Below, in pieces: positions 5,381 to 44,882 of a DNA stretch of 64,000 nucleotides; the stretch's first letter is position 1, and each line of letters opens with the position of its first letter. The stretch spans positions 1 to 64,000 of the forward strand of contig JACATA010000003.1 in the NCBI GenBank assembly GCA_013390375.1. Reading direction: 5' to 3'. A model generated the notes under the pieces. It was not told where the DNA came from and did no database searches. It saw only the letters and a list, made by a program, of their open reading frames with translations. Both the position numbers and the translations under genes were made by a program. Source of the DNA: Marine Group I thaumarchaeote. GTDB lineage: Archaea > Thermoproteota > Nitrososphaeria > Nitrososphaerales > Nitrosopumilaceae.

Positions 5381-6724
5381 ATGACAGAACAGCAAGCACT
5401 TTGGTCAGTAAACGAAACTACCTCGATCAAGACTTATACTTTGATAAATTTTCGTAAAATTCCACAAATTCAGCAAATGTCAGAGGAGGCCCAATTTGAG
5501 ATGGAAGTTGTTGGCAACGTACTTCCTTTTAAGACGAACAATTATGTTGTTGAGCAACTTATTGACTGGGATAACATTCCAAATGATCCTATGTATGTTC
5601 TAACATTTCCTCAGAAAGGCATGTTGATTCCTGAGCATTATGATAAGATGGCAAGCACTTTGAGAAGTGGAGCAGATAAAAAAGAAATTGCACGTGTTGC
5701 AAACGACATTCGTTTGCAATTAAATCCTCACCCAGCTGGTCAGATGGAACTGAACGTTCCACAATTAAAGGATGGAACAAAACTTTATGGAATGCAGCAT
5801 AAATATGATGAAACTTGCCTCTTCTTCCCAAGCCAGAGTCAAACATGCCATGCCTACTGCACCTTCTGTTTTCGATGGCCACAGTTTGTTGGTATGGATG
5901 AGATGAAATTTGCAATGAGAGAGGGAGAGCAATTAGTACAATATCTAAAGGAGCATCCAGAAATAACAGATGTTTTGTTTACTGGTGGCGATCCTATGAT
6001 TATGAAAGCTAGCATGTTTTCTGCTTATACAGATACTTTACTTGACGCCAAATTACCTAACCTTAAGACAATTAGAATTGGGACTAAGGCCATCTCTTAC
6101 TGGCCTTACAAATTTTTAACCGATTCTGACGCTGATGAAACTCTGAAAAATTTTGAAAAAATAGTAAAAAGCGGAACACACCTAGCGATAATGGCTCACT
6201 TTAATCACCTTGTTGAGCTTTCAACGGATCCAATAAAGGAAGCAATCAAACGAGTAAGAAAAACTGGTGCACAAATCAGAACTCAATCTCCACTTTTGGC
6301 TCACATAAACGATGATGCAAACATGTGGGCGAAGATGTGGCAAAAACAGGTTTCTTTGGGTTGTATACCATACTACATGTTTGTTGTTAGAGATACAGGA
6401 GCTCAACATTACTTTGGAGTACCTCTAGTAAAGGCAGAAAAGATCTTTCGGTCTGCATTTAGACAAGTTAGTGGTCTGGCAAGAACCGTTAGAGGACCAA
6501 GCATGTCAGCTACTCCAGGTAAGGTGCACGTTCTTGGCGTGTCGGAGATTAATGGACAGAAAGTAATTGTGTTACAATTGTTACAAGGAAGAGAATCAGA
6601 ATGGGTAGGCATTCCATTCTTTGCAAAATATGATGAAAATGCAATATGGCTTGATGATTTAGAGCCTGCCTTTGGAGAAAAGTTCTTCTTTGACGATGAG
6701 TTTAAAGCAAAATACAAACACTAG
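5381..6724 (+). CDS. Lysine 2,3-aminomutase-family radical SAM protein
   Basis: 447 aa. The radical SAM cluster motif is C156-x3-C160-x2-C163 (CHAYCTFC), followed by FTGGDPM, the KamA-type SAM-binding segment. The family moves an amino group on lysine or glutamate with PLP and SAM; in archaea KamA (AblA) makes beta-lysine for the osmolyte N-epsilon-acetyl-beta-lysine. No acetyltransferase partner (ablB) lies next to it, so the substrate is unproven. It stands alone, downstream of a divergent promoter shared with an osmotic channel gene. Confidence 0.85.
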   Translation: MTEQQALWSVNETTSIKTYTLINFRKIPQIQQMSEEAQFEMEVVGNVLPFKTNNYVVEQLIDWDNIPNDPMYVLTFPQKGMLIPEHYDKMASTLRSGADKKEIARVANDIRLQLNPHPAGQMELNVPQLKDGTKLYGMQHKYDETCLFFPSQSQTCHAYCTFCFRWPQFVGMDEMKFAMREGEQLVQYLKEHPEITDVLFTGGDPMIMKASMFSAYTDTLLDAKLPNLKTIRIGTKAISYWPYKFLTDSDADETLKNFEKIVKSGTHLAIMAHFNHLVELSTDPIKEAIKRVRKTGAQIRTQSPLLAHINDDANMWAKMWQKQVSLGCIPYYMFVVRDTGAQHYFGVPLVKAEKIFRSAFRQVSGLARTVRGPSMSATPGKVHVLGVSEINGQKVIVLQLLQGRESEWVGIPFFAKYDENAIWLDDLEPAFGEKFFFDDEFKAKYKH

Positions 6725-6774: not shown

Positions 6775-6782
6775 TTTATAAA
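6775..6782 (+). promoter_or_regulatory. TATA box of the TFB gene
   Basis: TTTATAAA at 6775-6782 lies 34-41 nt upstream of the ATG at 6816, placing transcription start just before that ATG. This supports 6816 as the ancestral start of the downstream TFB gene. Confidence 0.5.
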
Positions 6783-6815
6783 GACTAACAAATTTAGATC
6801 TTAGAAAGTGATAAA

Positions 6816-7749
6816 ATGGTAAAAACCAAAAAGCAAAACAGTAAAAACCAAAAAGACAGATTTAAAAGAAAAATGTCCTAGATGTGTTAAAGGTATCCTA
6901 GTAACTGATCACGAATCAGGAGAAATGTTCTGCTCAATATGTGGTTTTGTAATATCTGAAAAGCTGCAGGAAGCAGGGCCTGAATGGAGATCCTTTACTC
7001 AGGATGAACATGGTGATAGAGCTAGAGCTGGAGCTCCTACATCGCTTACAATGCATGACATGGGACTTGCAACAATTATTAATCCTACTAACAAAGATGC
7101 ATCTGGAAAGCCTCTAACTTCCGCAATGAAAAGTACAATTGAGAGACTTCGAACTTGGGATAGTAGAAGCCAAGTTCATGAACCAGTAGATCGAAACTTT
7201 AGGCAGGCATTCAGTGAACTAAACAGATTGAAAGATAAACTTTCTATATCAGACGCAGTGATAGAAAAAGCAGCCTACATTTACAGAAAGGCACTGGACA
7301 AAGGATTAGTTAGAGGAAGATCAATCTCTGCCTTAATGGCATCAGCATTATATGCTGCTTGCAGAGCCACTGAAACCCCAAGAAATCTTAAAGATGTAGA
7401 ACAGGCTGCAAATATAAAACGAAAAGACATTGCAAGATGTTACAGGCTTCTTATAAAAGAATTAGATCTACACCTACCAGTTACAGACTCTGTTCAATGT
7501 GTGGCACGCATAGCAAGCCAAATTGGAATACAGGAAAAAACAAAGAGACATGCAATTAAGGTCTTAAAACTTGCACAAAAAAATGAAATATCTGCAGGAA
7601 AGGATCCTATGGGACTTGCAGCGGCTGCGTTATACCTAGCATGTGTCAAAAACGGTGAAGATAAAACACAAAGAGACATTGCAGAAGCAGCCAATGTTAC
7701 AGAAGTAACTATCAGAAACCGCTACAAGGGATTAAAGGATTCTGAATAA
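6816..7749 (+). CDS. tfb: Transcription factor B (TFB) with N-terminal frameshift
   Basis: From Cys 6874 onward the frame encodes a complete TFB: zinc ribbon (CPRC ... CSIC), the B-reader segment with GPEWRSF, then two cyclin repeats to 7749. It recruits RNA polymerase to TATA-TBP complexes. No ATG, GTG or TTG lies in this frame between an in-frame TAA (6820-6822) and the zinc ribbon. The ATG at 6816 is in another frame and stops at 6879-6881. GTAAAAACCAAAAAG occurs at 6819-6833 and again at 6841-6855; removing the 22-nt unit fuses the ATG cleanly to the ribbon. So the gene is frameshifted by a 22-bp duplication, recoded, or carries an assembly error. The first in-frame ATG (6925) would cut the ribbon in half. 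Confidence 0.9.
6819..6855 (+). repeat. 22-bp imperfect tandem duplication at the TFB 5' end
   Basis: The 15-nt word GTAAAAACCAAAAAG is present twice, 22 nt apart, separated by CAAAACA. The unit length is not a multiple of three, so it puts the ATG and the TFB body in different frames. Confidence 0.85.
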
Positions 7750-11327: not shown

Positions 11328-11942
11328 TTAACTTTTAGAACCTTTAAAACTCTTAATTCTGCTAGCCTCATCGGCTACTATTTTATCAATTTCTGAAATT
11401 TTATCACGTAGACTGTAAACTATGTTGCCAACATCATCTGCATCTTTTTCCACTTCAGATCGTTTTCTAGTCAGTTCTTGTAATCCTTCATTTTCCTCTT
11501 GTATGAATTGATTTATTTTCGTAAGCTTTTCTTTCAAATTCTTAATATCAACCGATTCTTCTTCAATACTTTTTACCAAACCTGTTCGTTTGTCTCTCAA
11601 TTCTTTAATCATGGATCCAACATAGTCAATAGCCTCTCCAAGCTTGAATCGTTTATCCATCAATCCCTCTATTCCAAGCTGACTTTGCATTGCAGTTCCA
11701 GCTTGTGAATATGATGTTGTTTCTTCAGCTGGTTCCGTGGAAGGAGTTTCTTCAGCTGGCTGTGAATATGATGTTGTTTCTTCAGCTGGTTCCGTGGAAG
11801 GAGTTTCTTCAGGTTTAGGCTCTGATTCAAAACTAGGAGTTTCTTCAGGTTTAGGCTCTGATTCAAAACTAGGAGTTTCTTCAGCCATTCCGCCAGAACC
11901 TTCATCCTCATCTTTATCCTTGAAAATATCAAACAAGCCCAT
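11328..11942 (-). CDS. Coiled-coil protein with acidic Pro/Glu/Ser repeats
   Basis: 204 aa from the ATG at 11942, chosen because MGLFDIFK is a plausible soluble N-terminus; an earlier in-frame start at 12005 would add 21 less likely residues. After about 20 residues come repeats: EETPSFESEPKP twice, then a 19-residue unit ending TTSYSQPA twice. From about residue 95 the protein is a long charged coiled coil. It ends 11 nt from the convergent CdvB gene. Possibly a scaffold; function unknown. Confidence 0.7.
   Translation of the reverse strand: MGLFDIFKDKDEDEGSGGMAEETPSFESEPKPEETPSFESEPKPEETPSTEPAEETTSYSQPAEETPSTEPAEETTSYSQAGTAMQSQLGIEGLMDKRFKLGEAIDYVGSMIKELRDKRTGLVKSIEEESVDIKNLKEKLTKINQFIQEENEGLQELTRKRSEVEKDADDVGNIVYSLRDKISEIDKIVADEASRIKSFKGSKS
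11700..11880 (-). repeat. In-frame tandem repeats (36 bp and 57 bp units)
   Basis: Two 36-bp copies encode EETPSFESEPKP and two 57-bp copies encode a 19-residue acidic unit. All unit lengths are multiples of three, so copy-number change would leave the frame intact. Such repeats also open long shadow frames. Confidence 0.8.
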
Positions 11943-12005
11943 TGATTCAATAAAATGACTCAGCAAGATAAAAGTTATGGCAAACTCCAAATTCTCACGA
12001 TCCAA

Positions 12006-44399: not shown

Positions 44400-44882
44400 T
44401 TGGCTAACTTCAAGATGACAATTTCTGATACAAAAGGAAAATCAATAGTTAAGGAACTAAAAGATAATGACGCTAATCCTTTACTTGGATTACTAATTGG
44501 TCAAGAAACAGATGCCTCTCTTGTAGGATTAGAGGGAAAGATCAAGATTACAGGTGGCAGTGATAAATCAGGTGTTCCAATGAGAGCAGATCTTCTTGGA
44601 GCTGCAAGAAAACGTATTTTAATACCAAATGGAGTTGGTTTACAAAACACCGAAAAAGGTCTGCGAAAACGGAAGCTGCTAAGAGGAAATACAATCTCTG
44701 AAGAAATTTATCAGATTAACAGCAAATATGATGGTGAAATTAAGGTAGAGGAACCAAAGAAAGAAGAGAAAGCAGAAGCTCCTAAAGAAAAACCAAAGGC
44801 AGAAGCTCCTAAAGAAAAACCAAAGGCAGAAGCTCCTAAAGAAAAACCAAAGGCAGAAGCTCCTAAAGAAAAAAAGGAATAG
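44400..44882 (+). CDS. rps6e: 30S ribosomal protein eS6
   Basis: 160 aa, TTG start. The ribosomal core covers residues 1-115 (DTKGKSIVKELKD, GLEGKIKITGGSDKSGVPM, GLRKRKLLRGNTIS). The C-terminus is an added basic tail of repeated PKEKPKAEA units encoded by four 27-bp tandem repeats. aIF2 gamma follows 28 nt later, so the two likely share a transcript. Confidence 0.93.
   Translation: MANFKMTISDTKGKSIVKELKDNDANPLLGLLIGQETDASLVGLEGKIKITGGSDKSGVPMRADLLGAARKRILIPNGVGLQNTEKGLRKRKLLRGNTISEEIYQINSKYDGEIKVEEPKKEEKAEAPKEKPKAEAPKEKPKAEAPKEKPKAEAPKEKKE
44772..44879 (+). repeat. 27-bp tandem repeat in the eS6 tail
   Basis: Four 27-bp units starting GCAGAAGCTCCTAAAGAAAA at 44772, 44799, 44826 and 44853, the first three nearly identical and the last diverged at its end. 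In frame, encoding nine-residue Lys/Glu/Ala/Pro units. Confidence 0.9.

Follow-up and report, generated by a model that had tools for sequence, protein, structure and literature searches.

A diverged 22-nt duplication and a missing in-frame start codon in a TFB gene of a Marine Group I thaumarchaeote

The zinc ribbon of the archaeal transcription factor TFB recruits the polymerase. It is followed in the TFB architecture by a linker and the cyclin folds (PMC7289017), and ammonia-oxidising archaea carry several TFBs, the dominance of which can shift with growth state, as from Nmar_0517 to Nmar_0013 in Nitrosopumilus maritimus (PMC12448741). For the joining of two reading frames, a proven archaeal case is fucA1 of Saccharolobus solfataricus, in which −1 frameshifting takes place at A-AAA-AAT (PMC8211752). 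Here we analyzed a TFB gene located in a 64,000-nt stretch of DNA (hereafter the window) from a Marine Group I thaumarchaeote, the genome assembly of which comprises 1.05 Mb in 37 contigs and is 94.7% complete. A first-pass annotation of the window had proposed that a 22-bp out-of-frame duplication disconnects the start codon of this gene from its zinc ribbon, and had offered a recent mutation, a phase-variable switch, a recoding site and an assembly error as explanations.

All features of the gene lie on the forward strand. The promoter and leader (6775–6812), comprising a TATA-like TTTATAAA and a GTGAT Shine-Dalgarno-like element directly 5′ of the start codon, are largely invariant when compared with six relatives. 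The following ATG (6816–6818) occupies the position at which all close orthologues have their start ATG in the alignment, and it represents the ancestral TFB start, which no longer shares the frame of the body. Its frame reads MVKTKKQNSKNQKDRFKRKMS and yields merely a 21-codon ORF that ends at TAG 6879–6881, and the TFB body frame (6823–7749), which encodes the zinc ribbon CPRC...CSIC from 6874 and then two TFIIB cyclin repeats, is shut upstream by TAA 6820–6822. Translation and frame reading therefore bore out two claims of the first-pass annotation, namely that ATG 6816 stops at 6879 and that the body frame is closed at TAA 6820 with no ATG, GTG or TTG before the ribbon; none of these three codons was found in the body frame between TAA 6820 and CPRC at 6874, and no near-cognate start codon was seen in this frame before CPRC either. 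The earliest in-frame ATG of the body is positioned at 6925–6927, within the ribbon, and a product initiated there begins MFCSICGF... and has lost the first zinc knuckle.

The body frame itself encodes an archaeal TFB. Its N-terminal zinc ribbon matches Pfam Zn_Ribbon_TF (PF08271; 3.2e-09, 36.6 bits) and retains the CPRC/CSIC cysteines, its two cyclin repeats match TFIIB (PF00382; 1.8e-41, 140.5 bits), and it is 94–97% identical to the intact orthologues. Using a codon branch model on the TFB body, we obtained an omega of 0.09 on the tip of the window genome against a background of 0.012, and omega = 1 was rejected for this tip (LRT 15.7). Pseudogene decay, for which the branch test was at first positive (LRT 9.8), was rejected since the intact-start sister tips behaved similarly in the same test, with omega values of 0.07 (G006) and 0.15 (G005). 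The test thus gave no indication of relaxed selection on the TFB body, as the tip omega of 0.09 falls within the range of the intact sisters and the elevation goes with short tips in general, not with the broken allele. As 0.09 is far below 1, any loss would be recent; judged from the body sequence, which bears no sign of long decay, the break would be recent, bypassed, or not real. Three unusual residues were observed at nearly invariant positions of the body (K22I, A124S and D165A), among which K22I in the second zinc knuckle (6937–6939) and D165A (7366–7368) are unique to this genome; three or four such unusual residues are also present in other, intact TFB sequences.

We then compared the start region with those of other TFB loci. 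An in-frame start was found in every other locus read, namely in some 65 distinct bodies of the genus and of named genomes and in a further 21 taken from family members with nearly complete genomes. The distance from the start to the first ribbon cysteine in these loci is 24–39 nt and differs by whole codons only, and it is 58 nt (36+22) in the window. The alignment to related TFBs that had been suggested as a check showed that in all relatives, but not in the window gene, the ribbon is read in the same frame as a start codon, and that none of them has the window layout. When searched with three mismatches allowed, the two-copy pattern appeared in 1 of 250 family genomes, which was the window genome, and was absent from the other 249. 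In the alignment with six relatives, the promoter, leader and ATG are conserved between the window and its nearest relatives, and the linker is hypervariable among relatives in both sequence and length. Consistent with the earlier statement that thaumarchaea carry several TFBs, the window genome contains three further TFB genes, all with usable starts (on contigs C27, C8 and C23), and hence four TFBs in total. Given that several TFBs are carried and that dominance can shift between them, the loss of one TFB might be tolerated.

A full-length TFB could in principle still be made from this layout through +1 slippage of the ribosome, or of the RNA polymerase on the transcript, in the A-rich overlap at 6823–6878. 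Compatible with such recoding, the ATG 6816 frame and the body frame overlap stop-free for about 55 nt in A-rich sequence, the start, promoter and body are all conserved, and a precedent exists in archaea in the −1 frameshifting of Saccharolobus fucA1 at A-AAA-AAT (PMC8211752). However, the shift needed here is +1 (or −2) instead of −1, the A-runs reach just 4–5 nt, and the predicted RNA structure of 6806–6935 has a z of −1.5, with 18 of 200 shuffles folding as well. A +1 shift at the stop TCC_TAG, the only stop-associated site, was rejected because it would skip and thereby delete the first ribbon cysteine. Further, neither the layout nor a slip site is conserved in relatives, although such conservation would be expected of a programmed frameshift, and no recoding signal was recognized at the window TFB start. 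We therefore consider the recoding site proposed by the first-pass annotation to be very unlikely.

An IMG/VR scan identified one metagenome contig, IMGVR_UViG_3300006340_001073 (L178/L180), as the nearest sequence found, with a TFB of 97% protein identity. The contig is identical to the window over the promoter, the leader and the initial 20 nt of the TFB gene; it reads ATGGTAAAAACCAAAAAGCAGGATTTAAAAG and encodes an intact 303-aa TFB beginning MVKTKKQDLKEKCPRC. Relative to the window, this single-copy allele lacks exactly 22 nt, and no duplicated allele was found in IMG/VR. The proposal that removing 22 nt gives a normal TFB start thus held in that an intact, 22-nt-shorter allele exists, although the ancestor put forward, MVKTKKTDLKEKCPRC, was close to the real allele but not the same as it. 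The contig is probably an assembly chimera, in which thaumarchaeal chromosomal DNA (channel-kamA-TFB-antiporter) is joined to phage-like sequence, and it was therefore used for the local allele only; its TFB part lies ~2 kb from the chimeric joint and keeps the kamA-TFB-antiporter order. The first ~2.8 kb of the contig have no match to the window, and at ~1349–3277 of L180 the beginning of the neighbouring channel gene is fused, within one 642-aa ORF, to an unrelated sequence that by eye looks phage-like. We also observed that 300 nt of the window (6350–6650) are identical to this contig, whereas the region around them differs from it by several percent, a pattern that suggests a recent recombination between strains.

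Comparison with the intact allele allowed the inserted unit to be placed. The 15-mer GTAAAAACCAAAAAG, reported earlier at 6819–6833 and 6841–6855, is indeed exact at both places, and a repeat search extended it to 21 nt with 2 mismatches (6813–6833 and 6835–6855). Of 5000 Markov simulations of the A-rich stretch, 21 contained an exact repeat of 15 nt or longer; this estimate is conservative, given that the model was trained on the stretch including the repeat itself. As the intact allele has a C after AAAAAG, the unit was placed as AAAATGGTAAAAACCAAAAAGC; its first copy (6813–6834) is identical to the single-copy allele (1501–1522 of L178) and is directly followed by a second, diverged copy, AAAACAGTAAAAACCAAAAAGA (6835–6856), so that a unit that is single in the nearest intact allele has an adjacent second copy in the window. 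Duplicating the AAAATGGTAAAAACCAAAAAGC block in the intact allele reproduced the window with 5 mismatches over the 90 nt compared, and 2000 random 22-nt inserts gave 6 mismatches at best and a median of 12. All 5 mismatches are confined to a pair of codons within the second copy: its start codon, changed from ATG to ACA (TG>CA), and its end codon, changed from CAG to ACA. The former ATG of the second copy (6838–6840) would share the frame of the body. Had the duplication been clean, the gene would still be usable from this second ATG, and it is the ACA that disconnects it. An in-frame 21-nt duplication with one extra base was also considered, owing to the 21-nt copies being separated by C6834, and was weakened by the finding that the intact allele has the same C. 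No match was obtained for the insert as a copy from elsewhere in the genome. The diverged second copy is present at a single place in the genome and is absent from relatives, so that there was no other site from which the assembler could have taken it. Other repeats observed in the window include tandem 27-nt repeats (9 codons, frame-preserving) at 44772–44882, near the end of gene 44400–44882, the C-terminus of which differs in length from relatives, and direct repeats of 36 and 57 nt at 11704–11850, inside the minus-strand gene 11328–12005.

A gain or loss of the 22-nt unit that toggles the TFB on and off, as in the phase-variable switch suggested previously, would fit the observation that dropping one unit between the 15-nt direct repeats restores a normal start. 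Phase-variable loci carry several near-identical units with copy-number variants, whereas only two copies, already diverged, are present here, and no copy-number variant and no allele series was seen among the 250 family genomes. No positive support was thus found for either phase variation or recoding; both are unlikely, and a switch in particular appears highly improbable.

The main rival to the duplication reading is a consensus chimera of co-occurring strains. The draft may have merged linker alleles of such strains, or may hold a one-base error in a longer in-frame linker, in which case living cells would carry an intact TFB. This possibility is a serious one, even if we hold it to be the less probable. 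The assembly is a draft in 37 contigs, the linker is hypervariable, any single-base deletion at 6820–6873 (54 positions) rejoins ATG 6816 to CPRC, the strong constraint on the body speaks against a fixed null, and in the flank, stretches that match the IMG/VR contig exactly alternate with others that have diverged from it, a mosaic that suggests strain mixing or recombination. On the other hand, since the insert is absent elsewhere in the genome and in relatives, its source must be the reads or an unsampled strain. Moreover, we compared 168 other genes of the window genome, taking 64 from the window, 40 from contig C8 and 64 from contig C27, with their homologues in G005 or G007, and found no lost start or clear internal frame break in any of them; a few flagged length differences at gene ends or stretch borders were judged by inspection not to be frame breaks. 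A generally indel-prone assembly was therefore rejected as unlikely. The assembly error named by the first-pass annotation is hence disfavoured as a general property of the genome, whereas a local chimera is compatible with the hypervariable linker and the mosaic flank.

Taken together, we lean towards a recent, lineage-specific and non-programmed out-of-frame duplication of 22 nt that disconnects the TFB start, which agrees with the recent mutation among the options first listed. This reading is supported by a near-identical allele that is exactly 22 nt shorter, by the absence of the layout from 249 family genomes, and by the lack of body decay beyond that of the sister tips. According to it, a 22-nt tandem duplication would have arisen across the start codon and first codons of the TFB gene, probably by replication slippage in the A-rich stretch, and the second copy would then have lost the sole ATG able to keep the frame (ATG>ACA). 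Promoter and leader would be retained together with the old start, but would drive a 21-residue peptide, and ordinary initiation is predicted to produce no full-length TFB, and at best a protein from ATG 6925 lacking half its zinc ribbon. The loss of function may be partly buffered by the three other TFBs, and the allele would be present in living cells. Two findings run against this duplication reading: under the very strong constraint on the body (background omega 0.012), fixation of a null in a large marine population is unexpected, and the second copy has about five changes, with its one useful ATG among the losses, that are unexplained by a single clean duplication.

Since closely related sequences have an intact gene, the most likely interpretation is an isolated break of an ordinary kind, as opposed to a novel switch or recoding signal, and no new mechanism is needed whether the allele is real or a consensus error. 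If real in cells, the allele would be a naturally occurring case of a general transcription factor gene without a start, in a streamlined archaeon whose TFBs number only four, and would reveal the extent to which TFB paralogues substitute for each other; if a consensus error, it is a warning on reading start-site defects from draft genomes. Were recoding true, production of a basal transcription factor would depend on a frameshift.

Compared with known systems, the locus resembles S. solfataricus fucA1 (PMC8211752) in having two overlapping frames that jointly span the full protein, with an A-rich overlap, and differs from it in requiring a +1 instead of a −1 shift, in having no recognized slippery heptamer or strong stem-loop, and in being unconserved in relatives. 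It is like archaeal TFB, the TFIIB homologue and one of several paralogues in ammonia-oxidising archaea, in its zinc ribbon and two cyclin repeats, and unlike the intact orthologues in that no start codon is joined to the ribbon. With frameshifting short tandem duplications that arise through replication slippage it shares the head-to-tail 22-nt unit, the A-rich stretch and a single-copy allele in the nearest relative; unlike a plain slippage duplication, the second copy in the window has about five additional changes, and a start that would otherwise be in frame is lost through two of them.
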